A stretch of DNA of 64,000 nucleotides from Candidatus Kryptonium sp. (GTDB lineage: Bacteria; Bacteroidota; Ignavibacteria; Kryptoniales; Kryptoniaceae): positions 753,284 through 817,283 of the forward strand of contig JANXBN010000001.1 of the NCBI GenBank assembly GCA_025060635.1. The letters are read 5' to 3'. The notes under the pieces are model-generated. The model saw only the letters and a program-made list of their open reading frames with translations, was not told where the DNA came from and searched no databases. The position numbers and the translations under genes were made by a program. Below, piece by piece: positions 1,805-21,029 of this stretch. Within the stretch, counting starts at the first letter, position 1; every line of letters begins with the position of its first letter.

Positions 1805-2830
1805 ATGTTAACCGCATTTCTAATTGACATTGGCAAGATAGAGATAAAACAGGTTGAGATTCCAAAACCAGCGGATGGTGAAATAGTAATACAAGTAAAA
1901 TCAGCTCTTACTTGTGGAACTGATTTGAAAATGTATCTTCGTGGATATCCGAAATTTAATTTCCCAATGCTCTTCGGGCATGAATGTTCTGGAATTGTTT
2001 ATAGAGTTGGTTCGGGAGTGAAAAATTTTAAAGAAGGTGACGAGGTGATGTTTGCAAATTCGGCTTCCTGTGGCGAATGTTATTATTGTAAACGAGGAGA
2101 TGAAAACCTGTGCATTAGTTTAGTCAACAACATCTTTCTCGGTGCATATTCAGAATTTGCCAAAGTTCCAGCAAAGATAGTTCAGAAAAATATGTTTATT
2201 AAGCCTAAGGAACTCTCATACACTCAATCAGCTTTTCTGGAACCAATTTCCTGTATTATGAACGGAATAAGAAATTTAAATTTGTTTGAAAAAGATACAA
2301 TTTTGATAATCGGTGATGGGGCGATCGGATTGATGTTTACGCTTGCGATAAAAAAATTTTTCAATGTAAACTTGATCGTTGCGGGTAAACATCCGGAACG
2401 ATTAGAGATTGCGAAAAGATTCGGCGCAGATGAAATTATAAATTCATCTGAAATTGATTTGACACAAAGATTGAATGAAATTACAAACGGTATTGGTGCA
2501 AATTCCGTCATTGAATGCACCGGAAAACCTGAGGTTTGGGAAAAAAGCCTTGACCTTGTCGCAAAAGGAGGTCAAATAATTTTATTTGGAGGTTGTCCAT
2601 CTGGAACAAAAGTAAAATTTGATGCAACGAGAATTCACTATGATCAGATCACAATAAAAGGAATCTTTCACTTCACATCAAAAGATGTTAAAAAGGCCTA
2701 TGAATTTCTATATGACAATTCAAACGAACTTCTTCAACTTGTTAGCGGTAGGTATAAGTTAACTGAAATTAATGAAGTATTTAATAAACTTGTAAACCGC
2801 AATGGTATCAAATATGAAATTGTGCCTTAA
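1805..2830 (+). CDS. Zinc-dependent medium-chain alcohol/polyol dehydrogenase
   Basis: This is an MDR-family NAD(P)-dependent alcohol dehydrogenase of the sorbitol/threonine dehydrogenase type. The catalytic zinc ligands are visible as TCGTD and GHECSG. The structural zinc cluster is CGECYYCKRGDENLC, and a Rossmann segment GDGAIGLMF follows. I start at ATG 1805 rather than at the in-frame TTG at 1796, because the ATG gives the usual family N-terminus. The end overlaps the convergent lycopene cyclase gene by 23 bp. A paralogous enzyme sits at 9283-10308, on the other side of the carotenoid cluster. The substrate is unknown. Confidence 0.88.
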   Translation: MLTAFLIDIGKIEIKQVEIPKPADGEIVIQVKSALTCGTDLKMYLRGYPKFNFPMLFGHECSGIVYRVGSGVKNFKEGDEVMFANSASCGECYYCKRGDENLCISLVNNIFLGAYSEFAKVPAKIVQKNMFIKPKELSYTQSAFLEPISCIMNGIRNLNLFEKDTILIIGDGAIGLMFTLAIKKFFNVNLIVAGKHPERLEIAKRFGADEIINSSEIDLTQRLNEITNGIGANSVIECTGKPEVWEKSLDLVAKGGQIILFGGCPSGTKVKFDATRIHYDQITIKGIFHFTSKDVKKAYEFLYDNSNELLQLVSGRYKLTEINEVFNKLVNRNGIKYEIVP

Positions 2831-3521
2831 GATTTTTATTCGCCTTTAACAAAAGATATGTTACGCCGATATTTAGAATGATCAACGAAAAAGTATATAA
2901 AAAGTCTTCCACAGGTATCCTTAAAAACCTATATCCAAGTATCTGACCATCATTATACCAGACAATAGGTTCGGGGGTATATGAGCCTGTGAGAGTTCCA
3001 TTGACGATCACGAATGGAACAAGAATAATAAAATACGAGATTATAAACTTTCGCATAAATTTAGCAAAATCTGAACGAAATAATATAAATGTTATAAATG
3101 TGCTTGCTAAAGTAAAGATTCCAATTACTTTTGTGTAGATCCCAGATTGAATTGAAAAAACAAGTGAGATTAGTAATATCAATCCAAGCGGGAGTAAATA
3201 TAGATCTGATTGTATATCCTTTTTAAATCTTTCCCAAATAACAAAGTGGGTGAAAATACAAGCAAACGGTATGCATATAAAGAAAAGATATTCTTCAATC
3301 GGCAAGTTAAAAATTTTATATCCCAAGATATATTTCTCGTTAAAGCCCCATATCCCAAGTTTCACAAATATGTGATCCCAAATTATGAACGGCATCATCA
3401 CAATTAAATTACTAAATAACATAAATGGAAAAATCTTGTATAAGTTAATTTTGGGGTGAAAGCCAGCTATAAGTGGAATTATAACCGATAATAAATCAAC
3501 TAATAGATACGCCGTTTTCAT
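2808..3521 (-). CDS. crtY: Two-domain (CrtYc/CrtYd-type) lycopene cyclase
   Basis: This integral membrane protein is predicted to cyclise the ends of lycopene to beta-ionone rings, giving beta-carotene. It has about seven hydrophobic segments in 237 residues. Two lycopene-cyclase-domain repeats are visible: PIEEYLFF at residues 74-81 and PVEDFLY at 203-209. Each is preceded by a G-Y-x-I/F-x-x-x-P context (LGYKIFNLP, LGYRFLRIP). In actinobacteria these domains are two separate subunits; here, as in fungi, some archaea and many Bacteroidota, they are fused. It is the last gene of the minus-strand carotenoid operon. Its start overlaps the crtZ stop by 4 nt. Confidence 0.9.
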   Translation of the reverse strand: MKTAYLLVDLLSVIIPLIAGFHPKINLYKIFPFMLFSNLIVMMPFIIWDHIFVKLGIWGFNEKYILGYKIFNLPIEEYLFFICIPFACIFTHFVIWERFKKDIQSDLYLLPLGLILLISLVFSIQSGIYTKVIGIFTLASTFITFILFRSDFAKFMRKFIISYFIILVPFVIVNGTLTGSYTPEPIVWYNDGQILGYRFLRIPVEDFLYTFSLIILNIGVTYLLLKANKNLKAQFHI

Positions 3522-3991
3522 ATTTTGTTTTTTCTATCTTTAAATGCCGATTTGTAGTATTTAATTGGAAATAAATATACAAAGCCAAAACATTCAGCGT
3601 TATCTTTTTCAAGATTTTTATGATGCTGTTTGTGTGCCCTGACTACCGCTAAAAAATATGGATTTTTTACCTTTTTGAAAAGTTTTATTCTTTGATGCGA
3701 TAAAACATCATGCATTAAGAAATACAATACTCCATAAGCAGTCATTCCAATTCCGATCCCTAAAGTTATCTGATTTTTGCCGATCACGCCAGAATATATA
3801 AAAGCTATGCTAACCAAAGCGAAGAATAAGACGAAAAGATCGTTTTTCTCAAGTCCCTTTTTAGGATACTTTTGATGATGGTCTTTGTGTAGAATCCATA
3901 AAAAACCGTGCATCACATATTTGTGTATCATCCAAACTATAGGCTCCATCAAGATAAGCGTTACCAATGATGTTATAAATGTTTGCGTCAT
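3518..3991 (-). CDS. crtZ: Beta-carotene hydroxylase CrtZ
   Basis: This is a non-heme di-iron membrane hydroxylase that would add 3-hydroxyl groups to beta-carotene, giving zeaxanthin. All four histidine boxes of the CrtZ / fatty-acid-hydroxylase superfamily are present in order: HKYVMH (23-28), HKDHH (35-39), HDVLSH (94-99) and HKQHH (120-124). At 157 residues it has the normal length for bacterial CrtZ. It lies between the glycosyltransferase and the lycopene cyclase and overlaps the latter by 4 nt, so it is translated within the same operon. Its presence makes a hydroxylated C40 carotenoid the expected product. Confidence 0.92.
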   Translation of the reverse strand: MTQTFITSLVTLILMEPIVWMIHKYVMHGFLWILHKDHHQKYPKKGLEKNDLFVLFFALVSIAFIYSGVIGKNQITLGIGIGMTAYGVLYFLMHDVLSHQRIKLFKKVKNPYFLAVVRAHKQHHKNLEKDNAECFGFVYLFPIKYYKSAFKDRKNKI

Positions 3992-3998
3992 GATCTCT

Positions 3999-5201
3999 TT
4001 AGTTGAATTTATTTTTGATGAATTCAGAAAGATAACTTTTGAATTTCGTTATTGATTTATTCACATCAAAAAGATCTGACATTTCTGTTAGCAATCCGCT
4101 TCGTCTTACGGCTATCCACTTTTCAAGTATATCTATAATGGATTTATCGTTTCTGTAGATCTCACCAAGACCAAATTTTTGAATTTGATATGAAAACCAG
4201 TATTGCTCAATATGGCTTGGGATCATTATTGACGGAACTCCACTTCTTAAAAAAGAATAAACAGTTCCGTTGCCACCGTGGCATATGACAACATCTATTG
4301 CGTTGGATATTTTACTTATGTTTACATATCTAAATTTTTGTGCTTGATCTATATTTAGGCGACAGGCTAAATCGCCAAGTAAAATAACATTAAATTTTTC
4401 ACTTAGATTTAGCTTTTCAATGAATAAAAATTTTTTCAAATCACCGCTACTTCCGAGTGTTATAGCAATGTTTGGTTTGCTATCACTAAATGTGGGGAGA
4501 TTGTCATTGTCTTGAACATTGAGGTCATAATAAACAGGACCGATAATTTTGACTTTGTGATTTTCTTCTATTGGGAAAATTTCCTTTGGGTCTAGTAGAA
4601 AGACCGTTTCTCCTTCATACTCTTCAAAAAGATGATCTTTGGTTGTTAGTTTAAGCTCTTTTCTTACGATATTAAAAGGTGAGTGGAATTTCTTCAAAAA
4701 GATGTTTTCCCCTGTTGAAAGTATGTAATTTCTTTTTTCTTCTGGAATTAGCTTAAATAGTATTTTGAGAAATACTTTAAGGGCGAAATTTAAATAAGAT
4801 AAATCCGTGTGTCTTTCGTTATAGTACCGTGTCATATATGTGTTGACAAGCGATATATGTGGTATATTAAGATATTCACAAGCCAACGAAGCGAAGATAT
4901 TTGAGTCGGAAACCACTATGTCTGGTTTGATTTTTTCCAAATTTTTTATCAATCTGGAAAAATTAAGTTTTATGTTTTCTTCGTCTATCCATGAGAAGTC
5001 AAATTGTTTGATCCTTTTCAGCAGATCTTCTTCATCATTTGAGTTAAGGTGATATGTAAAACCATGATTTTCAACAAATTTGGCATAATTTGGACTTACC
5101 AAAAAAACTATTTCTAATTCATTCCCCAGGGATTTTGCCAATGTTGTGCATCTTCCAACATGAGATAGCAGGTTAAATGGTATGAAGAGTAATCGTCTCA
5201 C
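3999..5201 (-). CDS. UGT/CrtX-like glycosyltransferase, probably carotenoid glycosylation
   Basis: This GT-B fold family 1 glycosyltransferase has 400 residues. The N-terminal acceptor domain starts MRRLLFIPFNLLSHVGRC, like macrolide and zeaxanthin glycosyltransferases. The C-terminal donor domain has NIAITLGSSGD and then the signature region VICHGGNGTVYSFLRSGVPSIMIP, where HGGNGT is the nucleotide-sugar binding motif. It sits between crtB and crtZ and overlaps crtB by 4 nt, which points to a xanthophyll acceptor as for CrtX. Sequence alone does not prove the acceptor or the sugar, so I leave the symbol empty. Confidence 0.85.
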   Translation of the reverse strand: MRRLLFIPFNLLSHVGRCTTLAKSLGNELEIVFLVSPNYAKFVENHGFTYHLNSNDEEDLLKRIKQFDFSWIDEENIKLNFSRLIKNLEKIKPDIVVSDSNIFASLACEYLNIPHISLVNTYMTRYYNERHTDLSYLNFALKVFLKILFKLIPEEKRNYILSTGENIFLKKFHSPFNIVRKELKLTTKDHLFEEYEGETVFLLDPKEIFPIEENHKVKIIGPVYYDLNVQDNDNLPTFSDSKPNIAITLGSSGDLKKFLFIEKLNLSEKFNVILLGDLACRLNIDQAQKFRYVNISKISNAIDVVICHGGNGTVYSFLRSGVPSIMIPSHIEQYWFSYQIQKFGLGEIYRNDKSIIDILEKWIAVRRSGLLTEMSDLFDVNKSITKFKSYLSEFIKNKFN

Positions 5202-6040
5202 ATCTTAAAAATTTTATTTTTAACGATAGCCATCAAAGCAATAGCAAGTTTTTTTAGATTTGAAATTCTTATTCTTTTCGTTTTAAATACTTCAATTGGC
5301 GTCTTTTTAATTTTGTTCAACAAAGATTTATAATAAAGATACGCAACGAAGACGCCTAATTTAGCACTTGATGGCAATCTTTTGATACCTTTTAGTGAAA
5401 AGTCTAATTCGTTTTTAATATCGTCTATTATCATTTGCATCTGGCTTTGCGAGATATTTTTTAGATCTAATCCGTTGAAATATCGCCTATTGAGGACAAT
5501 GTTATCGTATCTTAAATCTCGCAGAAAATTCACCTTCTGAAAAGCTGATCCAAGTTTGATTGCATAATCTTTGAGTTCCTCGTACAGTTTTTTATGTCCG
5601 TTTGTAAAAACAGCCAAGCACATGAGCCCAACTACTTCTGCCGATCCGTAAATATATTGCTTTAGTTCCTTATCGTTATATTCATTCATGTAAATATCCA
5701 TTTCCATGCTCTTGAAAAATGCTTCTATGAGATCTTGGTTTATTTTATACTTATTCACTGTCGCTTGAAAACTATGCAGTATTGGATTCAGGCTGAATCC
5801 ATCTGAGATCGCTTGGTATGTTTGCTTTTTAAATTCGTTTAGAAGTTTAACTTTATCTTTATCATGAAAAGTATCAACGATTTCATCAGCCAATCTTACG
5901 AATCCATAAATTGCGTATATATCTTGCCTTATCTTTTTATTTAGCAAATATATCCCTATTGAGAATGAAGTACTATACAAATTAGTAATTGTCTTACTAC
6001 AATTGTTGCAAAATCTATCGTAAATTTCACGATAGTTCAT
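5198..6040 (-). CDS. crtB: Phytoene synthase
   Basis: This enzyme condenses two geranylgeranyl diphosphates to phytoene, the first committed step of carotenoid synthesis. The two aspartate-rich metal-binding motifs of the squalene/phytoene synthase family are visible: DEIVD at residues 52-56 and DLRYD at 175-179, the latter within QKVNFLRDLRYD. AEVVGLMC (135-142) is the usual segment before the second motif. The length of 280 residues is normal. It overlaps crtI by 4 nt upstream and the glycosyltransferase by 4 nt downstream. No GGPP synthase gene lies in the window, so the precursor must come from elsewhere. Confidence 0.93.
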   Translation of the reverse strand: MNYREIYDRFCNNCSKTITNLYSTSFSIGIYLLNKKIRQDIYAIYGFVRLADEIVDTFHDKDKVKLLNEFKKQTYQAISDGFSLNPILHSFQATVNKYKINQDLIEAFFKSMEMDIYMNEYNDKELKQYIYGSAEVVGLMCLAVFTNGHKKLYEELKDYAIKLGSAFQKVNFLRDLRYDNIVLNRRYFNGLDLKNISQSQMQMIIDDIKNELDFSLKGIKRLPSSAKLGVFVAYLYYKSLLNKIKKTPIEVFKTKRIRISNLKKLAIALMAIVKNKIFKM

Positions 6041-7506
6041 ATTTGACCTTTATTTTTTATTATGAAATCAGAAACAATGGTTCCAGAAATTATGGCTGGT
6101 GGGACTCCAGGACCTGGGACTGTTAAGTGTCCAGCATAAAATAAATTTTTAAGTTTTCTATTTCTTATTTTGGGTTTCAAGATAGCTGTTTGTAAAAGTG
6201 TGTTTGCTAATCCATAGCAATTCCCCTTATAAGCGTTGTAATCTTTTACGAAATCGCTCGGTCCGTAGGAAATTACAAATTCAATAGAACTTTTTATTTT
6301 TTCACCAGTTAATTTCTCAAACTTTTCTATCGCATAATTAAGATAGTTTTCCTTAATTTCTTCATTTTCGTAAAGTCCTGATGGAACGGGTATGAAAATA
6401 TATAAACACTCTTTGTCTGGAGGTGCTAATTCTGGTTCGGTAATTGACGGTATATTGATATAGACCTGTGGCTTTTGCGGGAAAGCCTTTTCTTTGTAAA
6501 TGCTATCTATGTGTGCCTCAAATTCTTCATCAAAAAATAAAACATGATGTGGAAGATTTGATAGTTTTTTGCTTAATCCAATATAAAATAAAATCGCCGA
6601 CGGAGTAAATTTTCTACTCTCCCAATATCTCTCGGAATAATTTCTATACTCTGGTGGCAATAACTTTTCAGAGTGATAATAATCTGATGTCGCTATTATT
6701 ACATCAGCTTTTATTTTTTCACCTTCTACTATCACACCCTTTGCTTTTCCGTTGTCCACTATTATTTTTTCAATCGGTGAATTAAAATAAAACTCAACTC
6801 CATTTGAGAGAGCGAGATTATACATTGCCTCAACAACCTTTCTAAAACCGCCGATCGGATACCAAGTTCCCAATTTGATATCTGCGTAGTTCATAATAGA
6901 ATATAAAGCTGGCAGCTCATATGGATTGCCACCGAGAAAAATAAGAGGAAAGCGAAGAATGCTTATAATTTTTTCATTTTTGAAATTATTTCGGATATAT
7001 TTCCCGAACTTTTGGAAAAGGTTAAGTTTCGCGGCGTTTGATATGAATTCAAGGTTTAGATATTCCGACAATTTTAAGTTTGGATAGTAAATAAATTTTG
7101 AAGTGCTTAATTGGTATTTTTCTTCCGATTCATTAATGAATTCAACTAATTTCTGGCTTGAACCTGGTTCTAATTTTTCAAATAGTTGGATTATTCCTTC
7201 AAACTCAGCTGGTAAATCCACATAATCATTTTCAGCAAAGTAAACTCTATAAGATGGATTTAATCTAATTAATTTATAAAAATCAGATGTCGTTTTGCCG
7301 AACCTATTGAAAAATCTTTCAAACACATCTGGCATCCAATACCAAGTCGGACCCATATCAAAATTGAATCCATTGAAACTTAAATATCTTGACCTGCCTC
7401 CGGGTATAGAGTTTTTTTCAAAAACTTTTACTTTATATCCAGCGCTAGCTAAAATAGCTGAGGAGGCAAGTCCCGAGAAACCAGAACCAATAATTACTAT
7501 ATCCAT
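6037..7506 (-). CDS. crtI: Phytoene desaturase (CrtI family)
   Basis: This FAD enzyme introduces the conjugated double bonds that turn phytoene into lycopene. The N-terminal dinucleotide motif is IIGSGFSGLASSAILASAG, followed by the typical FEKNSIPGGRS and NFDMGPTWY. The C-terminal CrtI signature is LFYAGHLTVPGPGVPPAIISG. The length of 489 residues is normal. It is the first structural gene after the CarH-like regulator. The 71-bp gap in front holds a promoter and a perfect 12-bp inverted repeat, so this is the likely point of light control. Confidence 0.94.
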   Translation of the reverse strand: MDIVIIGSGFSGLASSAILASAGYKVKVFEKNSIPGGRSRYLSFNGFNFDMGPTWYWMPDVFERFFNRFGKTTSDFYKLIRLNPSYRVYFAENDYVDLPAEFEGIIQLFEKLEPGSSQKLVEFINESEEKYQLSTSKFIYYPNLKLSEYLNLEFISNAAKLNLFQKFGKYIRNNFKNEKIISILRFPLIFLGGNPYELPALYSIMNYADIKLGTWYPIGGFRKVVEAMYNLALSNGVEFYFNSPIEKIIVDNGKAKGVIVEGEKIKADVIIATSDYYHSEKLLPPEYRNYSERYWESRKFTPSAILFYIGLSKKLSNLPHHVLFFDEEFEAHIDSIYKEKAFPQKPQVYINIPSITEPELAPPDKECLYIFIPVPSGLYENEEIKENYLNYAIEKFEKLTGEKIKSSIEFVISYGPSDFVKDYNAYKGNCYGLANTLLQTAILKPKIRNRKLKNLFYAGHLTVPGPGVPPAIISGTIVSDFIIKNKGQI

Positions 7507-7525
7507 AGTGCAAAAGTAAATGCGA

Positions 7526-7568
7526 ATTTTGTTTAACTAAATATAAAACTTTGTTAAACAAAATACAA
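7526..7568 (-). promoter_or_regulatory. crtI promoter overlapped by a perfect 12-bp inverted repeat (candidate CarH operator)
   Basis: The two 12-bp arms ATTTTGTTTAAC (7526-7537) and GTTAAACAAAAT (7553-7564) are exact reverse complements, separated by 15 bp. On the minus strand a promoter reads TTGTAT (7563-7568), 17 bp, TATATT (7540-7545). One arm therefore lies in the spacer and next to the -35 box, and the other lies at the start site. A dimeric or tetrameric repressor bound here would block polymerase. The CarH-like gene next door is the obvious candidate. The binding itself is inference. Confidence 0.65.
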
Positions 7569-7577
7569 ATTGGGGTT

Positions 7578-8480
7578 TTATTTAAGGTTGGCGATAAAAT
7601 TTTTGAAGTCCGAGATGTCCACAAAGATATATAGATTAGGAAGTCCCTCTAATTTTAGATTTTTTGCTTGTTTCCCTATAACTATGATTGATTTCTTAGT
7701 TGAATTAAGCAAGCTTTTTATTTTCTTTTTGAGCAAGCATTGCTCCATTGGCGAAACGAAAGAGGTTAAAACATAATCTATTTCTGATATTTTTTGAGAT
7801 ATTAGAATTACATCCTTAATCGGGGTTGCTTGACCGAGGTATATTACTTTATGTCCATATGATTTTATTATAAATCTTGCAAATAACAGACCAATTTCGT
7901 GAAGTTCATCTTCCCATAAAAACAACAAAAATGTTCTTGGATTGTCCGCGGGGATGTTTTCTTTTTCAAGTTTTATAATTTTGTCTCGTATTATGTTTGA
8001 AAATAAGTGTTCTTGTCCAGCACATATTGTTTCTGATTGCCAAAACAATCCGATTTTTTCAAGCACCGGTATAAGAACTTTTTCAAAAGTGGTTTCAAAA
8101 CCGTAGATGTTTATTGTTTCATCAATTATTCTGTTAAGTTCGCTGATGTTTAGTTCAATGATGCTTGATATAATTTTTATTTTGGTGGTTTCTAAATTTT
8201 TCTGTATGTCAATCAGATCTTCTTTTGCTATTTCATCTATTTTTTGTTTCAATGGTTTTCTTGATAGTTGGGCTATCTTAGAAATTTTTAAACCTTGATG
8301 GTAGAGTGTCGCTATGTTTAAAAATTTCCTGAAATCATTGATGTTATAATATCTGATGTTTCGTTTCCCGCGCCTTGGATTAAGTAGTTTATATCTTTTT
8401 TCCCATATCCTTATGGTATGAGATTTTATGCCAGTTGCTATCTCAAGGTCAGTAATTGAAAATTTGTCTTTTATGAGCAT
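7578..8480 (-). CDS. carH: CarH/LitR-type MerR regulator with adenosylcobalamin-binding light-sensor domain
   Basis: The N-terminal MerR winged helix-turn-helix (about 8-75) carries TDLEIATGIKSHTIRIWEKRY. The C-terminal half is a B12-binding domain. The two CarH hallmarks are present: W147 followed after nine residues by E157-H158 (the Wx9EH motif that caps the adenosyl group), and E192-L-H194-E-I-G197, in which His194 would be the lower cobalt ligand. In the known CarH family, AdoCbl drives tetramer formation and repression in the dark, and light breaks the tetramer. The gene lies directly upstream of crtI on the same strand, so control of the crt genes and itself is likely. Assignment to the AdoCbl-dependent type rests on these motifs. 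Confidence 0.88.
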   Translation of the reverse strand: MLIKDKFSITDLEIATGIKSHTIRIWEKRYKLLNPRRGKRNIRYYNINDFRKFLNIATLYHQGLKISKIAQLSRKPLKQKIDEIAKEDLIDIQKNLETTKIKIISSIIELNISELNRIIDETINIYGFETTFEKVLIPVLEKIGLFWQSETICAGQEHLFSNIIRDKIIKLEKENIPADNPRTFLLFLWEDELHEIGLLFARFIIKSYGHKVIYLGQATPIKDVILISQKISEIDYVLTSFVSPMEQCLLKKKIKSLLNSTKKSIIVIGKQAKNLKLEGLPNLYIFVDISDFKNFIANLK

Positions 8481-8652
8481 ACGCAGATCGGCAAGTAAAT
8501 TTTAAACTCTGTTATTAATTTATGAAAAATTAAAAACTATTTTCTACACTTAACCTTGAATTCAGGTATCGTAAGGTAGTTGGGGAATTTGAAGCTCTTT
8601 GTGAGCAAGCTGAAAAATAGTAACTGGATTCTTAGTATTGCGGCGAATTTTG

Positions 8653-9189
8653 TTATCGGTTTAATTTTTGAATGATTCCGATAAGTTTTTCTGAATATTC
8701 TTCAAGGATCAAGCGAAACCAAGGTGTGTATAAGTTTGGATTTTGTTTTATATCAGAGAAAAGAAAATCAAGTTTTTCATGTTTTACATTTGCAACTTCA
8801 GTTAAATCTGGTTTTATCGGTCCATCGTAAAATCCGTAGAAAAGCGTGTTATACTCATGTTCAATTAAATCACCAACATTTAGTTTATATTTGATTATTC
8901 CAAATTTGTTGATTTCGCATTTTATTCCGAGTTCCTCTAATAATCTTCTCTTTGCTGCGGTTTTGAAGCTTTCGCCGGGTCTTGGATGCCCACAACAGGT
9001 ATTGCTCCACAGAAGGGGTGAATGATATTTGTTTTCCGCTCTTTGTTGTAAAATTAGATTGCCGTTTTTATCAAAAATAAAAATTGAAAAAGCGCGATGA
9101 AGCACACCTTCTTTGTGTGCTTTTAGTTTTTCCATTATTTTGAGCTTACGATTAAATTTATCAACCACAACAACATATTCTTTGCCCAT
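8653..9189 (-). CDS. idi: Isopentenyl-diphosphate delta-isomerase, type I
   Basis: This Nudix-fold enzyme interconverts IPP and DMAPP, supplying the isoprenoid precursors for the carotenoid genes downstream. The catalytic Cys lies in NTCCGHPRPGES (residues 63-74), the Nudix-like helix is AAKRRLLEELGI, and the second catalytic acid is in EHEYNTL (110-116). The length of 178 residues is typical. It is followed by a 172-nt gap before the CarH-like gene on the same strand, so the two may form separate transcripts. A 93-bp region separates it from the divergent dehydrogenase and contains its predicted promoter. Confidence 0.94.
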   Translation of the reverse strand: MGKEYVVVVDKFNRKLKIMEKLKAHKEGVLHRAFSIFIFDKNGNLILQQRAENKYHSPLLWSNTCCGHPRPGESFKTAAKRRLLEELGIKCEINKFGIIKYKLNVGDLIEHEYNTLFYGFYDGPIKPDLTEVANVKHEKLDFLFSDIKQNPNLYTPWFRLILEEYSEKLIGIIQKLNR

Positions 9190-13259: not shown

Positions 13260-14054
13260 ATGGTTATATTTCCAAAAGAACATGGTTCTTGGGCTATTTT
13301 GCTTATACCGTTTTTAATAGGTGCAAAAGTTGGAGGTAAGTTTGATATAAAAACAATTCTCTTTCTTGTCTCTGTTCTTTCTATTTTTCTTTCTTATCAA
13401 CCAGCGTTGATGCTTGCTAAGTCAAGATTGAAAATTTCCTCCGAAAATGTTAAGGATGCTATGAGTTCATTTTTGATTTTTATACCTTTTGCTGTGATAT
13501 CGTCGCTTATTTTGATTTTTTATTTCAATCTTTACGGTTTGCTTATCTTCGGTGGGATCGGTGTAGTGGCTTTTTTAATTCAGCTATATCTTGCTAAATT
13601 AAATCTTGACAAAACATATGGGGGACAGATTTTCGCAACAGGTGTTCTTGTTCTAACAGCGCCTTCGGCTTACTATGTTGGTGTTGGTCGGTTTGATCCC
13701 TTGATGTTTCATCTTTACTTTTTATGTTTAATGTTCTTTGGAAGCGGAATTATTTATGTGAGAATGAAAATATCTGCACTTGCAACAAAGAAGGAAAAAT
13801 TTACATTTGGCGAGAAAATTTTCATAGGGCGATATAACCTTGCTTATCATCTTGCGATTTTATTTCTTATTATTGTGCTTTTCATTCGTGGTTCAATAGG
13901 TTGGTTGACATTTGCTGGATTTCTACCTGTGATAATCCATTCAATCATGGGGACATTTATGTTGGAGCGTAAGGTGATTTTCAAGCGACTTGGATGGATT
14001 GAGACAATTTATTCAATTTTATTTGCCATCGTGATAATCATTGAATTTGGATGA
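13260..14054 (+). CDS. YwiC-like integral membrane protein
   Basis: This membrane protein of 264 residues has about eight hydrophobic segments. The N-terminus MVIFPKEHGSWAILLIPFLIG matches the conserved start of the YwiC-like family, in which PKEHGSWA is nearly invariant. The biochemical role of that family is not well established; in other bacteria it is often found near nitrate or respiratory genes. The last 36 bp overlap the 3' end of the convergent archaemetzincin gene. Confidence 0.83.
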   Translation: MVIFPKEHGSWAILLIPFLIGAKVGGKFDIKTILFLVSVLSIFLSYQPALMLAKSRLKISSENVKDAMSSFLIFIPFAVISSLILIFYFNLYGLLIFGGIGVVAFLIQLYLAKLNLDKTYGGQIFATGVLVLTAPSAYYVGVGRFDPLMFHLYFLCLMFFGSGIIYVRMKISALATKKEKFTFGEKIFIGRYNLAYHLAILFLIIVLFIRGSIGWLTFAGFLPVIIHSIMGTFMLERKVIFKRLGWIETIYSILFAIVIIIEFG

Positions 14055-14600
14055 AATTTGCCAAAATAATTTTTCGTAGCAATCATTGCAAAAGTAAGGT
14101 GATTTTATATCAACTTCTTCAACGGAAGTTGATGGGTGCATGACACATAGATAGTTTTCGCAATGTAAAAGTCCAAAGTTATGTCCAAGTTCGTGAACCG
14201 CTTCTTTTAAAAGTCGTTCTTCTGTCAGTTTCCTGTTCTCTTGGAAGCCATATGCAATTTCATTTAATCTAAAGGTTGAAACTACAGAAATTTTCCCTCC
14301 AAGTTGTGCTTCACCAAATACATAAGTTAAGACAGGAATGAATAAGTCAACTGAGATGACCCCTAAAACTTTTCCATTGAAGTTGTTAAATTTTTCAGAC
14401 AGGATTGAAATTATCTTTGTTGAATTGAATTGGTAACGAGAGCTGTCATAGGCGGAAGAAAGGTTCAAATGATTTGTATTGTCAAGAATAACATCGCATT
14501 TGAAAATTTCTCTGATTGATGGGACAAGGGTAAGCACGAGTGAAAAATCAACTGGATATATCGGAACGATAAGGATTTTGTTTAATTTCGGGGAAGTCAT
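14019..14600 (-). CDS. amzA: Archaemetzincin-type zinc metalloprotease
   Basis: The metzincin zinc site HELGHNFGLLH fits the HExxHxxGxxH consensus (about residues 136-146). It is followed by CENYLCVMHPS, which gives the Met-turn, and by CNDCYEKL. The four Cys (147, 152, and the CxxC pair near 172) match the extra zinc site of archaemetzincins (family M54). The length of 193 residues is typical. There is no signal peptide, so it should be cytoplasmic. It starts 6 nt after the stop of the sigma-54 response regulator and may be the last gene of that operon. It overlaps the convergent YwiC-like gene by 36 bp. Confidence 0.88.
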   Translation of the reverse strand: MTSPKLNKILIVPIYPVDFSLVLTLVPSIREIFKCDVILDNTNHLNLSSAYDSSRYQFNSTKIISILSEKFNNFNGKVLGVISVDLFIPVLTYVFGEAQLGGKISVVSTFRLNEIAYGFQENRKLTEERLLKEAVHELGHNFGLLHCENYLCVMHPSTSVEEVDIKSPYFCNDCYEKLFWQISSKFNDYHDGK

Positions 14601-14606
14601 TGATTT

Positions 14607-15956
14607 TCAAGTGTTTCTGTCTCTTCTCAGATTGTATTTTTCAATTTTATTATAAAGCGTGACTCTGTCTATGCCAAGTATTTTTGCAGCTTGTGTTATG
14701 TTCCAATTTGTTTTGTTTAAAATTTTAAGTATGTGTGCTTTTTCAACTGCTTCAAGCGTTTCATTTTCAGGTTGTTCTTCTTCAATTGGATGAATGGGCA
14801 GATCCTGAGGAAGAATTGCAGGCGGTTTTGCAAGAACCATTGCTCTTTCAATTGCATTTTTGAGTTCTCTTACATTTCCTGGCCAGTCGTATCTTATCAG
14901 CATATCCATTGCTTCTGGCGAAATTTCTGTTATCGGTTTATGCATCATTGTTGCATATTTTTTTAGGTAGTAATTTGCTATCAATGGTATATCGGATCTT
15001 CTTTCTCTCAATGGAGGGATGAAAATTGTAAATACATTAAGTCGGTAATATAGGTCTTCTCTAAATTTCCCCTCTTTCACGGCTTGCTCAAGGTTACAGT
15101 TTGTTGCGCAGATAACTCTGAAATCACTCGTTATCGTTTCATTACCTCCAATTCTTGTGAATTGTTTCGTTTCAAGGACTCGCAAGAGTTGAATTTGCAT
15201 TTTTAAGCTTATTGTTCCAATCTCATCTAAGAAAATTGTTCCGCCGTCTGCTATTTCAAACTTTCCTTTTCTTCTGTAGAGTGCATCTGTGAAGGCGCCT
15301 TTTTCATGTCCGAAAAGTTCGCTTTCAAGTAATGTATCGGGGACGGCTCCGCAATTTACTGAAACGAATGGGAAATATCTTCTTGGGCTGTGTGCGTGAA
15401 TTAATCGTGCAACAAGTTCTTTTCCTGTTCCGCTTTCTCCTCTTATCATTACAGTTGTATTTGTTGGAGCGACAGTTTTCGCAAGTTCAATTACTTTTTT
15501 AATTTGGGGGCTTTCTCCGATAAGTTCTTCCCCCATGATAAGTTCTGAAATATGCTCGCGCAGTTTTATATGCTCATCTGTTAGTTTTTTATGTTTGAGC
15601 ACATTCTTGACAAGATGCGAAAGATAGTCTGGGTCAATCGGCTTTGTAATGTAGTCATAAGCACCTTCTTTAAGTGCTTGAACAGCGGTGTCAACTGAAG
15701 CAAAGGCTGTAATTATAATGATTATTGCGTTTGGGTCAATTTCTTTTATTCTCTTTTGAAGTTCAAGGCCGTTCATTCCAGGCATTTTAATGTCAATAAA
15801 AATTATATCCCAAGGTCCTTCGTTCATCATTTTTAATGCTTGAGCTGCGTTTTCCGCTGTTCCGACTTTATAGCCATCTTGCATAAACCATTTGGAGAGG
15901 GAATCCCTAACTACGAATTCATCGTCAACGATTAAAATACTGAATTTCTGTGTCAT
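14607..15956 (-). CDS. NtrC-family sigma-54 response regulator
   Basis: This is a three-domain activator of 449 residues. The receiver domain (about 5-120) has the acidic pair DDE at 11-13, phosphorylation site D55 in FIDIKMPG, and Lys in YITKPID. The AAA+ domain has Walker A GESGTGKE, the sigma-54 contact loop as GAFTDA (consensus GAFTGA) and Walker B GGTIFLDEIG. The Fis-type helix-turn-helix is ILNKTNWNITQAAKILGIDRVTLYNKIEKYNL. It overlaps the upstream histidine kinase gene by 32 nt, so they form a cognate pair. Likely targets are the sigma-54 promoters at 17590-17605 and 21014-21029. Confidence 0.94.
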   Translation of the reverse strand: MTQKFSILIVDDEFVVRDSLSKWFMQDGYKVGTAENAAQALKMMNEGPWDIIFIDIKMPGMNGLELQKRIKEIDPNAIIIIITAFASVDTAVQALKEGAYDYITKPIDPDYLSHLVKNVLKHKKLTDEHIKLREHISELIMGEELIGESPQIKKVIELAKTVAPTNTTVMIRGESGTGKELVARLIHAHSPRRYFPFVSVNCGAVPDTLLESELFGHEKGAFTDALYRRKGKFEIADGGTIFLDEIGTISLKMQIQLLRVLETKQFTRIGGNETITSDFRVICATNCNLEQAVKEGKFREDLYYRLNVFTIFIPPLRERRSDIPLIANYYLKKYATMMHKPITEISPEAMDMLIRYDWPGNVRELKNAIERAMVLAKPPAILPQDLPIHPIEEEQPENETLEAVEKAHILKILNKTNWNITQAAKILGIDRVTLYNKIEKYNLRRDRNT

Positions 15957-17547
15957 GGCTTATGTTTGACTTTTTTGGTAATGTTATTGTAAATGTTGTT
16001 CCATGATTTACCTTTGATTCAACGGTTATTTTCCCGCCATGTCTTTCAACTATTCCATACACGACTGCAAGTCCAAGTCCTGTTCCTTTACCTTCTTTTT
16101 TCGTTGTGAAAAATGGTTCAAATATATGTGGTAAAATTTCATCAGGTATTCCAACGCCAGTATCAATTATCTTGATTTGAATTTCATTATCGTTAATTTC
16201 TTTAACTTTTATCCCGAGAGTTCCGCCGTTTGGCATCGCTTCAATTGAGTTTATCTCCATCGCAAGGAGCATTTGTTCAATTTGTTGGGAATCGCAGAAA
16301 ATGAAAAGTGGATTCTCAGGAAGATCAATCTCAAGTTTTATATTGTTCATTTGCAAATGGTGAGATATCAAAGCTATGCTTCTTTTTACTATATGACAAA
16401 TATCTTCGTTTTTAAATTCACCTACTTTTTGTTTTGAGAACAAAAGCAGATTTTTGACTATGTTACCGCATCTTGCTGTTTCATCAATTATTATTGAAAG
16501 TTCATTCAAAATTTCTTCTTTTTCGCTTTCGCCAATTTTGCCGTTTTCAAGTTTTCTTTTTAAAAGTTTCGCATAGGTAAGGATTCCTTCAAGTGGATTG
16601 TTAAGCTCGTGCGCAACTGTTGCAGAAAGTTTCCCAAGCGAAGCCATTTTCTCAATTTGTAGCATATATGCATGAGCTCTTTGGAGTTCGGCGGTTTTTT
16701 CGTTTACTTTTTGCTCAAGTGTTTTAGCCCAGCTTAAGAGTTCTTCGTGAGCTTGTTTGAGTTTTTGAGTCATTTCATTGAAGGATTTAGCAAGTAAACC
16801 AATCTCATCGTTGGAGTTAAGATCAAGTTTAAAATCAAGATTTCCGTTCATTATCTCGGTTGTCCCATATGTTAATTTTTTCAGTGGGACATTCACGAAT
16901 TTCCAAATGAAGATAAGCACGAAAATTGAGATCGTGAAAAACATTATGATTCCGCTTGTATATTGAATCTGTGCCAATCGTTTCGTATTTCTGTGAAGAT
17001 CCTTAAGCGAAATCATCACATCAAAAACACCGAGGATCGTTTGTTCCTTTGTATGTGCATGGCAGCTGGCGTTATAGCATGATTCCTCGTTTTTTATCGG
17101 ATTTATCGCTCCAAGTATTTTATGCCCATCTGGTGCATTAAATATACGGGTCAATTGAGATGCTTCCGCTGGGATGCTTATTTTTCCATCGTAGTGGCAT
17201 ATGTTGCAAGCTTCGCTTTCAACAGGTATAACTTTTCCAACTTCATCAGGTATGGTTGAAAATGTTATTTCGCCTCTTTTATTGTATATTCTTATTACTT
17301 CAATTCCAGGTTGCTGTCCGAGCATTTTTATTATTTGGTAAATATCTTCCCTGTGATTGCGCAACATGCTATAGTGTGTTGAACGCTTTATCAGATCGCT
17401 CATTTTTACGGCGTATTCCTTTGATATTTCTAAATATTGCCTCGTTTGCCATTCTATAATCAAGGTTGAAAAAACAATAGTAATTCCCAGGACGAGGAAG
17501 AAGATAAGAATAAAAAGCTTGAACGCAAGGCTCTTGAAGATTTTCAT
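15925..17547 (-). CDS. Membrane histidine kinase with periplasmic heme-c-type motifs
   Basis: The protein has 540 residues. TM1 is at about 10-32, the periplasmic domain at 33-197, TM2 at 198-217, and a HAMP linker to about 272 with a coiled coil. The HisKA His313 is in VAHELNNPLEG, and the HATPase has the DTGVGIP, FEPFFTTK and GTGLGLAVVYG boxes. The sensor domain contains CNICH (114-118), a standard CxxCH heme-c site, and CYNASCH (157-163), a CxxxxCH site. This suggests a mono- or di-heme redox or gas sensor. It is coupled to the downstream sigma-54 regulator and lies next to the Fe-S/NrfD redox module. Confidence 0.9.
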   Translation of the reverse strand: MKIFKSLAFKLFILIFFLVLGITIVFSTLIIEWQTRQYLEISKEYAVKMSDLIKRSTHYSMLRNHREDIYQIIKMLGQQPGIEVIRIYNKRGEITFSTIPDEVGKVIPVESEACNICHYDGKISIPAEASQLTRIFNAPDGHKILGAINPIKNEESCYNASCHAHTKEQTILGVFDVMISLKDLHRNTKRLAQIQYTSGIIMFFTISIFVLIFIWKFVNVPLKKLTYGTTEIMNGNLDFKLDLNSNDEIGLLAKSFNEMTQKLKQAHEELLSWAKTLEQKVNEKTAELQRAHAYMLQIEKMASLGKLSATVAHELNNPLEGILTYAKLLKRKLENGKIGESEKEEILNELSIIIDETARCGNIVKNLLLFSKQKVGEFKNEDICHIVKRSIALISHHLQMNNIKLEIDLPENPLFIFCDSQQIEQMLLAMEINSIEAMPNGGTLGIKVKEINDNEIQIKIIDTGVGIPDEILPHIFEPFFTTKKEGKGTGLGLAVVYGIVERHGGKITVESKVNHGTTFTITLPKKSNISHDTEIQYFNR

Positions 17548-17706: not shown

Positions 17707-18321
17707 TTAGCAGATCTTGAATACTTTATTTATGATGGAAAAATACCGCTTTGCCCCGAGCAGATCTTTAATTGTTTCAATAACTCTGCCTCCGTCTTGA
17801 AGCGTTGGAATTGAAACTTGATCAAAAGATTCGGTGATCGTTGAGAGAATTTCGTTCTTAAATTCTTTGATTTTGGAGTTATAATACTCTAAAAATTCCG
17901 AATAAGTTAGAAGTCCAGCGATTTTTTCGGTTGTTTTTATTTTAAAAAGCCATCCAGTATTATATGGGTCTTTGTTTGCGATATCGGGATGTTCTATTAA
18001 AGTTTTATTTATTTCAAAAAGCTCGCCTTGGATAGGCGAGCGAATTCTTAAAATTCCATCTCTATATATTGCCCACGCACAAGGGGTGTTTTGCTTAACC
18101 GATGATGGGGGAGCAAGAAATATGAACTCAATTATTGGGGCAAAGAGATAAATAATTGAAGAGCTAAGCCCAACGGTTATTAAATTCGGCTCTGGCTTTA
18201 TCCAGGTATGCGAGGCTGTATAGAATCTATCATCGGGAAACTCAACCTTTGAAAGAATCTCCATAAATCGCAAGGCGACATCAATCGCCGTTATTTGATT
18301 TATGTTTTTTCCGTTGGGCAT
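17707..18321 (-). CDS. Degenerate GcvH-like (lipoyl-domain) protein, soluble, without the lipoyl lysine
   Basis: Residues about 33-130 follow the glycine-cleavage H-protein fold: HTWIKPEPNLITVGLSS (38-54, as HEW...VGIT), RSPIQGELFEIN (94-105) and DPYNTGWLFKI (118-128). The position of the lipoylated Lys (ESVKAAS in GcvH) is occupied by YRDG, with Asp88 at the aligned position, so lipoylation is not expected. A helical C-terminal extension (130-204) ends in VSIPTLQDGGRVIETIKDLLG, which resembles the C-terminus of the second H-like protein at 20305-20967. It is the last gene of the redox operon, 9 nt after the NrfD gene. Its function is unknown. Confidence 0.75.
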   Translation of the reverse strand: MPNGKNINQITAIDVALRFMEILSKVEFPDDRFYTASHTWIKPEPNLITVGLSSSIIYLFAPIIEFIFLAPPSSVKQNTPCAWAIYRDGILRIRSPIQGELFEINKTLIEHPDIANKDPYNTGWLFKIKTTEKIAGLLTYSEFLEYYNSKIKEFKNEILSTITESFDQVSIPTLQDGGRVIETIKDLLGAKRYFSIINKVFKIC

Positions 18322-18329
18322 AGCTAATT

Positions 18330-19517
18330 TTAGGTTTGCTCTTTAAAGACTTCTTTTATTGAAATAACCTCAAAACCTTCGGTTAATAATTTTCTCTTCT
18401 CACTAACTTCAGGTGGAAATATAGGCAAATGTTTCGCTATAAATCTAAACAAAGCAAATCCAAGTGCGACCATGAAAAGAGTCACAGTTATTTCAGTCCA
18501 CTTCGGGAAATAATTAGCTTGCGTGTAATTTTCAAGCGCCGTAATGCTAACATTTAATCTATTGAGAATAAAGCCGAGGACTGTAATAAGCTGCGCAATA
18601 AATAATCCTTTTTTACTGCTTCTTATCCGTGAATTTGCAAGAAGTATTATTGGCAAGATTACTCCAAACGCAAACTCAATCCAAAACATTATCGCTTCAT
18701 AGTTCAGCGTGAAGATATAACTAAAGAGATTATACTTTATTATGTCTTGGATTTTTAAGACAAGATAAACCATCAATGCAACAGCGGTGACTTTTGCTAG
18801 CTTTGAGAGTATGTGAATTTCTATTTCTCTTTTAAAAGCTCTGGAACTTAAATATGATTCAATTGTGACCATTGCAGGACCAACAGCAACCGCTGAAAGG
18901 AAGAAGAGATATGGCAAGTTGCTTGAGTACCAGATCGGGTAAAGTTTTTCTGGAACGATTAAATATAATGAGCCCAATGAGGATTGGTGAAGTGTTGATA
19001 ATATAACACCTGCAACGACTAGGGGGATAGTTAAACTTTTTATTATCTTTTGTGGTTTTTCAAGTTTGAATTTCTGAAAAATGAACGGACTAAATTCAAG
19101 TGCAAGGACGGTTGTATAAAGCATAACACACCATGCTACCTCAAACATAACTGATTCTGGGTTCCACATTATTATGGGATGCCATATGTTCCATGGTTTT
19201 CCAAGATCAAAGAGAAGAGCAATGATAACGAGAAGATATCCGAGAAATGCGGTTAAAATTGCGGATGGAAGAATTGATTTATATTCTTCAAGGTTGAAAA
19301 TATAAACTGCAGCAGCTATGACAAATCCACCTGCTGCAAGTCCAACGCCACAAAGGACATCAAATCCAATCCATAAACCCCAGGGGAACTCGTCGCTTAA
19401 ATTTGTAACAGCGCCAAGTCCTTTCGTAAAGCGAAGTATAGTTGAATAAATACCAAGAGCGACTATTATCCAGAAAACCGAGCTCCAGAATGTAAGTTTA
19501 GGGATTTTTATTTTCAT
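18330..19517 (-). CDS. NrfD/HybB-like integral membrane quinone oxidoreductase subunit
   Basis: This polytopic membrane protein of 395 residues has about ten hydrophobic segments. The N-terminal part LSDEFPWGLWIGFDVLCGVGLAAGGFV is characteristic of HybB-type NrfD proteins. In that family the subunit passes electrons between a menaquinone pool and the partner Fe-S protein. The partner is encoded immediately upstream with a 4-nt overlap. No hydrogenase, molybdoenzyme or multiheme cytochrome gene lies in the operon, so the electron donor or acceptor on the other side is not encoded here. Confidence 0.9.
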   Translation of the reverse strand: MKIKIPKLTFWSSVFWIIVALGIYSTILRFTKGLGAVTNLSDEFPWGLWIGFDVLCGVGLAAGGFVIAAAVYIFNLEEYKSILPSAILTAFLGYLLVIIALLFDLGKPWNIWHPIIMWNPESVMFEVAWCVMLYTTVLALEFSPFIFQKFKLEKPQKIIKSLTIPLVVAGVILSTLHQSSLGSLYLIVPEKLYPIWYSSNLPYLFFLSAVAVGPAMVTIESYLSSRAFKREIEIHILSKLAKVTAVALMVYLVLKIQDIIKYNLFSYIFTLNYEAIMFWIEFAFGVILPIILLANSRIRSSKKGLFIAQLITVLGFILNRLNVSITALENYTQANYFPKWTEITVTLFMVALGFALFRFIAKHLPIFPPEVSEKRKLLTEGFEVISIKEVFKEQT

Positions 19518-20284
19518 TTTCCGTTCTCCTTTTTGTTGTTTTCTTCCATTTCTTTAAGTTTTCTTTGAAGTCGTTGGACTTCATCTCTACGCTTTGTTAT
19601 CCACCAGATTCCGAATAATAATGTTCCGCCCCAGAAAATGTAACCCGGGATCTTTGACATAATTTGTTCTGTAAATAGAGAAAGCGGAACTTCTGGAAGG
19701 TTAGCTTTGAAGCCAAGTTTCTGCATAGGTCTATCAGCTAGGTAAAGCACTGAAGTTCCTCCAGCTTCTTTCAGTCCAAAGATGTGCGGATAATATGTTT
19801 CTGGATTTTCATTGATTCTTCTTTTTGCTTCTTCAATTAGTTCATCTCTTTTCCCAAAGGTTCTTGCTTCGGCTGGACAAGCTTCAACACAAGCCGGGAC
19901 ATTGCCAGCTTTTATTCTTTCATAACACATATCACATTTTGTGACTTTTGGATTTAGCTTGTCCCATTGATACTTTGGTATATCAAATGGGCAAGCTTGC
20001 ATACAATATCTGCAACCGAGGCACTTTGATGGATCGTATATAACTGGACCAAGGCTGGTTTTTTGAAATGCTCCAACTGGGCAAGCAGAAGCACAGGTTG
20101 GTTTTTCACAATGCATGCAGAGTCGTGATACATAAACCCCATTGTAATCTATGACAGCGGTGTTTTGAATTGATGAAAGCTTATGAGCTTCTGTGATAGG
20201 GTTACCCCATCTTTGAGCACATGCTTCTTCACAAGCATAACAGCCTATGCATCTGGTTATGTCAATTAAAATTCCGTATTTCAT
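19514..20284 (-). CDS. Four-cluster [4Fe-4S] ferredoxin-type subunit with C-terminal membrane anchor (HybA/DmsB-like)
   Basis: Four Cys sets are visible, in order: RCIGCYACEEAC (11-22), LCMHCEKPTCASACP, KCLGCRYCMQACP and KCDMCYERIKAGNVPACVEACP. Together these would hold four [4Fe-4S] clusters, as in DmsB/HybA/NrfC. A single TM helix lies near 212-229 (IPGYIFWGGTLLFGIWWI), followed by a basic coiled-coil tail. There is no Tat signal: the protein starts directly before the first cluster, and an in-frame stop lies 30 nt upstream (20315-20317). It overlaps the NrfD gene by 4 nt. The basic tail after the TM suggests a cytoplasmic C-terminus, which conflicts with the missing export signal. Confidence 0.9.
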   Translation of the reverse strand: MKYGILIDITRCIGCYACEEACAQRWGNPITEAHKLSSIQNTAVIDYNGVYVSRLCMHCEKPTCASACPVGAFQKTSLGPVIYDPSKCLGCRYCMQACPFDIPKYQWDKLNPKVTKCDMCYERIKAGNVPACVEACPAEARTFGKRDELIEEAKRRINENPETYYPHIFGLKEAGGTSVLYLADRPMQKLGFKANLPEVPLSLFTEQIMSKIPGYIFWGGTLLFGIWWITKRRDEVQRLQRKLKEMEENNKKENGK

Positions 20285-20304
20285 TTTTAAACCAGATTTA
20301 ATTT

Positions 20305-20967
20305 TTAAATGCGTTTAATAAATTCTTTTTCAAATTTTTCCCAAGTTTTTTCATCAACATTTTGTAAAACTCCTTTTATCACGAGCCCACCGTCCACAAG
20401 CGTTGGCTCTGGTGAAAACTTCGGCGCTTCTATACTTATAAATTCTCTAAATCTTTTTATCTCATTTCTCAACCATTGCGAGGCTTCGTTTCCAATTAAG
20501 AGATTTTTTAGCTCCGATGATACATCTTCAGGTTCAATCATAACAATCCAACCATTGAAATATGGATCATTTAAAATTGTTTCTGGTGATTCAAGTATTG
20601 ATGGATTAATTTCCGTGATTTTTCCGTTAATCGGAGAGATAAAGGTAAGAGTTCGTTCACCTTGTTTAATTTTGAAAAGTGGATCTCCTTTTTTGATCTT
20701 CTCTCCTACGGGTAGAACTTCAATAGCATCAATTTTTCCTGTCACTTTTGAAATGAAATCATCAACTCCGACATAAACCTTACCAGAAAATAGAAGCTCA
20801 AGCCATGTGTGAGCTTTGCTGAAGAAATAGCCACGGGGTAAGACAAAACTTTCAGGACTTAACATAACTTGTGGTTGATAAATCTCCCGCTTTTTATGTG
20901 CCCTCTGGATTAGAAGGTCAATTGCTATGCAAGTTAGAATTGTTGCTATTACGAAAAGAGCTACCAT
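20305..20967 (-). CDS. Membrane-anchored degenerate GcvH-like protein, without the lipoyl lysine
   Basis: An N-terminal TM helix (2-20) is followed by QRAHKKR, which places the rest in the cytoplasm by the positive-inside rule. Residues 47-145 have the H-protein fold: KAHTWLELLFSGKVYVGVDDF, SPINGKITEIN and NDPYFNGWIVMI (133-144). The lipoyl-Lys position aligns with Glu104 in KQGERTLTF, so it should not carry lipoate. The C-terminal region has PTLVDGGLVIKGVL, similar to TLQDGGRVIETI in the other H-like protein. It is the first gene of the Fe-S/NrfD operon and has a predicted sigma-54 promoter 35 nt ahead. Confidence 0.77.
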   Translation of the reverse strand: MVALFVIATILTCIAIDLLIQRAHKKREIYQPQVMLSPESFVLPRGYFFSKAHTWLELLFSGKVYVGVDDFISKVTGKIDAIEVLPVGEKIKKGDPLFKIKQGERTLTFISPINGKITEINPSILESPETILNDPYFNGWIVMIEPEDVSSELKNLLIGNEASQWLRNEIKRFREFISIEAPKFSPEPTLVDGGLVIKGVLQNVDEKTWEKFEKEFIKRI

Positions 20968-21013
20968 GATATGTTCTCCAAATTTTTGTTTTTGTTTTCA
21001 CATTTATTATATC

Positions 21014-21029
21014 ACAAATAAAGTGCCAA
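21014..21029 (-). promoter_or_regulatory. Predicted sigma-54 promoter of the H-like/Fe-S/NrfD operon
   Basis: Read on the minus strand, 21029-21014 is TTGGCACTTTATTTGT. The -24 box TTGGCAC is perfect and the -12 box is TTTGT instead of TTTGC, with the correct GG-to-G spacing. The start site would be near 21002, 35 nt upstream of the first gene. Two identical palindromes lie about 100 and 190 bp further upstream, the usual distance for an activator's enhancer sites. Confidence 0.65.

Follow-up and report, generated by a model that had tools for sequence, protein, structure and literature searches.

Why should two proteins with the fold of GcvH, both devoid of the lysine to which lipoate would be attached, frame a membrane redox module? 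This question is raised by a locus in the genome of a Candidatus Kryptonium sp. (Bacteroidota; Ignavibacteria), in which the genes of a membrane-anchored and a soluble H-like protein, called H1 and H2 here, flank those of an iron-sulfur (Fe-S) protein and an NrfD-type membrane protein. The locus lies within a stretch of 64,000 nucleotides (contig JANXBN010000001.1, positions 753,284 to 817,283), referred to below as the window. In GcvH, the fold docks on partner enzymes and presents the lipoyl arm. On balance, we lean towards the view that H1 and H2 are lipoate-free H-fold adaptors linking redox complexes to a redox-responsive two-component system.

The H-protein fold without the lipoyl lysine

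The genes of the window were read from its list of open reading frames (ORFs), the families were assigned on the basis of Pfam and NCBIfam profile scores, and the fold of H1 was analyzed with AlphaFold2 and Foldseek. H1 (20305 to 20967, minus strand) carries an N-terminal membrane helix, an H domain predicted to be cytoplasmic and a C-terminal DGG tail, while H2 (17707 to 18321, minus strand) is a soluble protein with the same domain and tail. Both match the GCV_H family (PF01597) far above chance (5.6e-21 for H1 and 2.4e-15 for H2). The best Foldseek matches of the H1 model (predicted local distance difference test, pLDDT, 88.7) are GcvH crystal structures from the PDB (target template modelling score 0.93, root mean square deviation 1.3-1.6 Å), and the modelled H domain of a related H2, which is not the window copy, also matches GcvH. 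The H-protein fold and its motifs are therefore retained, as the first-pass annotation of this DNA had proposed. H1 and H2 differ from GcvH in the absence of the lipoyl lysine of the E-[SA]-x-K hairpin, the membrane helix of H1, the DGG tail and the gene context, and they score only 63 and 52 bits against the GcvH model TIGR00527, the cut-off of which is 116 bits.

The position of the lipoyl lysine is occupied by Glu104 in H1 and Asp88 in H2, a result given alike by the phmmer alignment to PDB GcvH and by a pairwise alignment with the GcvH of the organism itself. This normal GcvH, which has an EAVK motif, is encoded separately elsewhere in the genome (contig position 50489). The alignments are free of gaps around the lipoyl site, which, together with the AlphaFold2/Foldseek match of H1, rules out a lysine merely shifted by misalignment: no lipoyl lysine was found on proper alignment. 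The acidic residue noticed at first pass is thus present in both proteins. It is not a conserved replacement: in 212 H-like domains (216 H-domain ORFs from three surveys, from which four lipoylated outsiders were removed), the site carries Gly, Asp, Glu, Ser, Asn and other residues, none of them favoured. Since any residue occurs there, the acidic replacement is incidental and is no signature of the family. Lysine is missing in 198 of these domains; its presence in the other 14 is close to the background lysine frequency, which indicates that the constraint on this residue has gone. The C-terminal DGG tail, rightly described as foreign to GcvH, was found in 143 of the 216 H-domain ORFs and in none of nine true GcvH sequences. 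Separately, two H-like proteins that bear a lysine at the lipoyl site (ESGK in L061, EAAK in L062) are encoded next to redox genes elsewhere in the phylum.

A run of seven genes

The anchored H-like, Fe-S, NrfD and soluble H-like genes do lie head to tail on the minus strand between 17707 and 20967, but the unit does not end there, as had been assumed: genes for a histidine kinase, a sigma-54 response regulator and an archaemetzincin (family M54) continue on the same strand below 17707. The result is a single run of seven minus-strand genes from 20967 down to 14019, in the order H1-FeS-NrfD-H2-kinase-regulator-M54. The regulator gene overlaps that of the kinase by 32 bp, and the archaemetzincin gene lies 6 bp beyond the regulator. 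The same order was found again in other families of the window's class and in named metagenome-assembled genomes. No hydrogenase, molybdoenzyme or cytochrome, multiheme cytochromes included, is encoded in the unit, in line with the initial description, and the sole relevant CxxCH motif is that of the kinase. As part of the explanation favoured here, the seven genes may well constitute one redox-response operon.

The Fe-S/NrfD pair

The Fe-S protein (19514 to 20284, minus strand) has 16 cysteines in the HmcB/HybA pattern, from which four [4Fe-4S] clusters are expected, and a C-terminal membrane helix. Its best matches are HmcB and HybA, both below the curated NCBIfam cut-offs (247 of 420 and 191 of 263 bits, respectively). 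The NrfD/HybB/HmcC-type integral membrane protein (18330 to 19517, minus strand; NrfD 1.3e-27), a putative quinone-interacting subunit encoded by a single-copy gene, likewise gives its best matches below the cut-offs with HmcC (357 of 550 bits) and HybB (312 of 450 bits). A four-cluster Fe-S protein with a C-terminal tail next to a multi-helix NrfD-type protein is the pair typical of HmcB/HmcC and HybA/HybB. Quinone modules of this kind have been reviewed (PMC8076601), and tail-anchored Fe-S/HybB-like pairs have been described, no conserved flanking genes being reported for the Fe-S-quinol oxidase pairs (PMC10924467). The window unit shares with these modules the protein pair, the tail helix and the N-in topology of the NrfD protein; it differs from them in that the Fe-S protein has no twin-arginine translocation (Tat) signal, no hydrogenase or cytochrome is present, and H-like and two-component genes are attached.

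No Tat signal was found on the window Fe-S protein: the ORF begins at the first ferredoxin motif and has no in-frame upstream start. Close relatives of this protein also lack the signal, and other relatives bear it. Across the clusters, it is missing in the Ignavibacteria-type, KSB1 and some Acidobacteria clusters and present in most of those of Desulfobacterota and Gemmatimonadota, the tail helix being kept in both cases. In the window, the tail helix and the NrfD charge pattern are the same as in the Tat-bearing relatives. An NrfD protein inverted to suit a cytoplasmic Fe-S partner was considered and was not seen, the charge pattern being equal to that of the two sister arrangements, variants B and C, which are also N-in. 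The Fe-S domain may be either cytoplasmic or exported with an unknown Tat partner; the latter has been suggested for a comparable protein next to an FeFe hydrogenase (PMC10924467).

Kinase, regulator, archaemetzincin and candidate promoter

The kinase (15925 to 17547, minus strand) is a membrane protein in which Pfam identifies HAMP, HisKA and HATPase domains, with a CNICH heme-c-type sensor motif (residue 114) predicted to be periplasmic. The regulator (14607 to 15956, minus strand) is composed, according to Pfam and the ORF list, of a receiver, an AAA+ domain and a Fis helix-turn-helix; together with the kinase it makes up an NtrC-type two-component system, and a single rpoN gene is present in the genome. 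A CxxCH motif is located at residues 112-125 in most kinases of the NrfD-type clusters, and the heme motif was found in 58 of 60 loci with NrfD versus 6 of 27 without it (p 8e-13). In several HdrA clusters, the kinases carry an NAD-binding Rossmann domain plus PAS, and others have PAS or Cache sensors.

The archaemetzincin (14019 to 14600, minus strand) scores above the NF033823 cut-off (169.9 bits; PF07998 2.7e-24) and has the zinc motif HEXXHXXGXXHC, here HELGHNFGLLHC; it conforms to the published extended motif apart from having X16 in place of X17 (PMC3427221). M54 genes are present in 38 of the 40 Desulfobacterota genomes having H-like genes (Fisher 4e-19, uncorrected for relatedness). 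Fifteen M54 genes were counted in the window's class: 13 have H-like genes nearby, one accompanies the separated kinase and regulator, and the last, a further copy from the genome of the window (G000:C7:54482, L211), belongs to what looks like a Suf/Fe-S assembly cluster, in which there are no H-like genes.

A sigma-54-like -24/-12 promoter, TGGCACTTTATTTGTG, was detected at 21013 to 21028 on the minus strand, 45 nt upstream of the H1 start codon. With a score of 12 of 15 and a shuffle p of about 0.01-0.025, this match is suggestive only. Better matches exist at similar places upstream of the operons of relatives, some of which have perfect TGGCAC-N5-TTGCT sites, and a site at p<0.05 was found in 42 of 102 H-like operons outside variant B, versus 5 expected.

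Variants, partner enzymes and distribution

Two other arrangements were found in the window's class. Variant B comprises a Tat-bearing Fe-S protein, NrfD, a 13-heme cytochrome, a heme kinase and two H-like proteins, one of them membrane-anchored, and has no sigma-54 regulator. Both of its H-like proteins are fusions of a receiver to the H domain (PF00072 6.6e-32 and 1.2e-23, plus GCV_H) without any DNA-binding output, and the D-x2-MP receiver motif is kept in all 13 membrane-anchored receiver-H proteins. Variant C contains a Qrc complex, with QrcA and QrcD above the NCBIfam cut-offs, together with two H-like proteins, a kinase, M54 and a regulator. QrcABCD is a menaquinone reductase (PMC6303296, PMC13059093); the window unit differs from its variant C relatives in lacking QrcA and QrcB.

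Neighbours were counted in 27 loci of the window's class (Ignavibacteria), 41 named loci and 39 loci of Desulfobacterota. In the window's class, the partner complex is an Fe-S/NrfD, Hmc-like or Qrc complex in 25 of the 27 loci. NrfD lies near the H-like genes in 25/27, 27/41 and 12/39 loci, respectively, and a kinase, sigma-54 regulator, M54 or receiver-H fusion in 25/27, 36/41 and 32/39. A survey of whether the H-like genes always flank the Fe-S/NrfD pair, called for at first pass, thus gives a divided answer: the association is true of the window's class but false in Desulfobacterota, where 27 of the 39 loci have no NrfD, an outcome named at first pass as one that would speak against the reading proposed there. 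Some of the NrfD-less loci have HdrA/HdrB partners (L090, L099, L201, L202 and others), some have NuoF-like complexes (L094-L097, L100, L203), and in many no partner enzyme was recognised. The H domain is also fused to parts of enzymes, as in the Fer2-Fer4-GCV_H proteins adjoining NuoF (L095, L203) and in a 972-aa Fer4-FlpD-Molydop-GCV_H protein of a Desulfobacterota genome (L210:9604-12522), the H domain of which is lipoate-free.

One scan of the GTDB genomes was performed with a cysteine-motif H2 as the query, so that H2 proteins without this motif are under-sampled among the 48 loci obtained. These belong to Ignavibacteria-type Bacteroidota, Deltaproteobacteria, Acidobacteria, Gemmatimonadota, KSB1, Zixibacteria, Planctomycetota, Aminicenantes, Neomarinimicrobia and Dehalococcoidia, the last of which match the motif only. 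The module, with Fe-S/NrfD, QrcABCD, Hmc-like, HdrA/B or NuoF partners, recurs in Ignavibacteria-type Bacteroidota, Desulfobacterota, Acidobacteria, Gemmatimonadota, KSB1, Zixibacteria, Aminicenantes and others. At two loci (L173, L177), a motif-bearing H2, M54 and a regulator adjoin a major facilitator superfamily transporter and a sirtuin-like gene, and no redox complex was seen; L173 also has a kinase with a Cache sensor beside the motif-bearing H2. Elsewhere in the window, the genes at 2808 to 9189 read as an apparent carotenoid cluster (phytoene synthase/desaturase-like, cyclase, hydroxylase-like and isopentenyl diphosphate isomerase).

Possible functions of the H-like proteins

The adaptor role that we favour draws on the fold, the loss of the lysine, the gene order and its recurrence, the fusions and the matching of sensor to partner. 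A response regulator normally has its output domain fused to the receiver, and in the receiver-H proteins the H domain would therefore take this role. The mechanism that we infer comprises binding, phosphotransfer, quinone chemistry and a role for the protease. The Fe-S and NrfD proteins would form a membrane module exchanging electrons with quinone. H1, tethered to the membrane, and H2, in solution, both having kept the docking fold without the lipoyl arm, would bind the redox complex at its cytoplasmic face and connect it with the two-component system. The kinase, with its periplasmic heme, would sense the redox state and phosphorylate the sigma-54 regulator, which would in turn drive the operon; in the sister form in which a receiver is fused onto the H domain, phosphorylation might act directly on the complex. 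The archaemetzincin probably contributes to this control by trimming a component or removing it. A precedent for the coupling of a kinase to such a fold exists in pyruvate dehydrogenase kinase, which has the GHKL fold and docks on a fold of the lipoyl type. The PDB entries 1y8n and 3crk, in which this kinase is bound to a lipoyl domain, gave weak Foldseek matches to the H-fold models. The likeness is one of analogy only and implies no shared ancestry of the regulatory arrangement.

The locus had first been read as a quinone-linked complex in which the H folds have a new structural or carrier role. The Fe-S/NrfD pair (in 25 of the 27 loci of the class) and a non-lipoyl role (the lysine being nearly always absent) stand. 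Confining the role to quinone complexes is too narrow, since NrfD is often missing outside the window's class and HdrA/HdrB or NuoF-like enzymes are found instead; a carrier role fits less well than an adaptor or regulatory one, since the kinase, the sigma-54 regulator and the archaemetzincin usually stay with the H-like genes. LbpA, the lipoate-binding protein of sHdr sulfur oxidation, is a known case of a GcvH-like protein associated with an Hdr-like enzyme, and it strictly keeps the lipoyl lysine (PMC6067878). H1 and H2 differ from it in the absence of this lysine, and no Hdr genes surround the window unit.

Several points weigh against the adaptor role. It rests on sequence and gene context, and the interaction, phosphotransfer and expression it involves are all predicted. 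A neighbourhood can persist in genes that are merely co-regulated, the H1 and H2 of the window form carry no receiver, and loci such as L049, L181 and others have no kinase, regulator or protease near the H-like genes. The genomes surveyed are related to one another, so that the p-values overstate their independence. Promoter scores of at least 13 were obtained in 23 of 77 operons with a sigma-54 regulator versus 0 of 13 variant B operons, but this contrast is suggestive only, since a rank test gave no significant difference between the two classes (p 0.70), possibly because the automatic operon starts are noisy.

The main rival, a less probable explanation that nonetheless deserves attention, is that H1 and H2 serve a purely structural purpose, as subunits that stabilise the redox complex or cap it on the cytoplasmic side, and that the two-component system and the protease control no more than the expression of the operon. 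The fusions of H domains to NuoG-like and FlpD enzyme parts, the close association with NrfD within operons of the window's class and the membrane anchor of H1 are all consistent with this idea, and given the sigma-54 boxes, transcription would suffice to account for the link to the regulator. It leaves unexplained the receiver-H fusions, which have no DNA-binding output, as well as the fact that the same proteins accompany enzymes as dissimilar as the NrfD, HdrA and NuoF complexes.

It is improbable that H1 and H2 carry another cofactor, such as a metal or Fe-S centre on the N-terminal cysteines of H2, with which they would shuttle electrons or thiols. Most H2 relatives do have a nearly invariant N-terminal motif, C-x-W-x3-G-x5-L-C-x5-C-x2-C, which is doubled in some of them and is accompanied by an H domain in 81 of 86 motif-bearing ORFs, but the window copy has lost it and some relatives lack it too, the motif region of an H2 relative is poorly modelled (block pLDDT 44-64), and no conserved residue replaces the lysine at the arm site. 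The motif is also found in two long proteins with a C-terminal H domain (611 aa, L095:17772-19607; 764 aa, L100:18103-20397), in which several hundred residues preceding this domain match no Pfam family. In Dehalococcoidia and one Deltaproteobacterium (L107, L108, L109), it is fused to a receiver, no H domain being detected, and these genes adjoin a kinase and/or a sigma-54 regulator. On the strength of these fusions, the motif may itself constitute a signalling domain, independently of the H domain.

Lipoylation at a different lysine is very improbable: the fold recognised by the lipoylating enzymes is retained, but the H1 and H2 family alignments show no conserved lysine at the hairpin. That H1 and H2 are decayed, functionless GcvH paralogues lying by chance beside respiratory genes is scarcely credible, since the loss of the lysine and the fast divergence of the families (about 20-49% identity) would fit decay, but not the conservation of the fold, DGG tail and gene order over many phyla, nor the fusions and specific partners.

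The adaptor role might extend further, although we give the wider claim somewhat less than even credence: lipoate-free H-fold proteins would be portable adaptors that act as the output of receivers on the one hand and dock on enzymes on the other. One sensing kit, consisting of the kinase, the sigma-54 regulator, the archaemetzincin and the H-fold pair, would then be plugged onto quinone, heterodisulfide-reductase-like and NADH complexes across many phyla, the sensor being swapped to suit the enzyme.

Biological implications

In the literature searched, the coverage of which mostly left out subscription papers, we found no description of lipoate-free H-like pairs with a kinase, a sigma-54 regulator and M54, nor of H-like proteins with NrfD, HdrA or response regulators, nor of bacterial archaemetzincin operons. 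As far as this search extends, the component families are known, and their combination and the role proposed for it are new. If the adaptor role is correct, the H-protein fold would gain a second job, that of a signalling adaptor besides that of a lipoyl carrier, and response regulators would acquire an output domain of a new kind. The bacterial archaemetzincins, proteases of little-known function, would gain a testable pathway, and it would be explained how many anaerobes match the expression or activity of very different energy-conserving complexes to the redox state.

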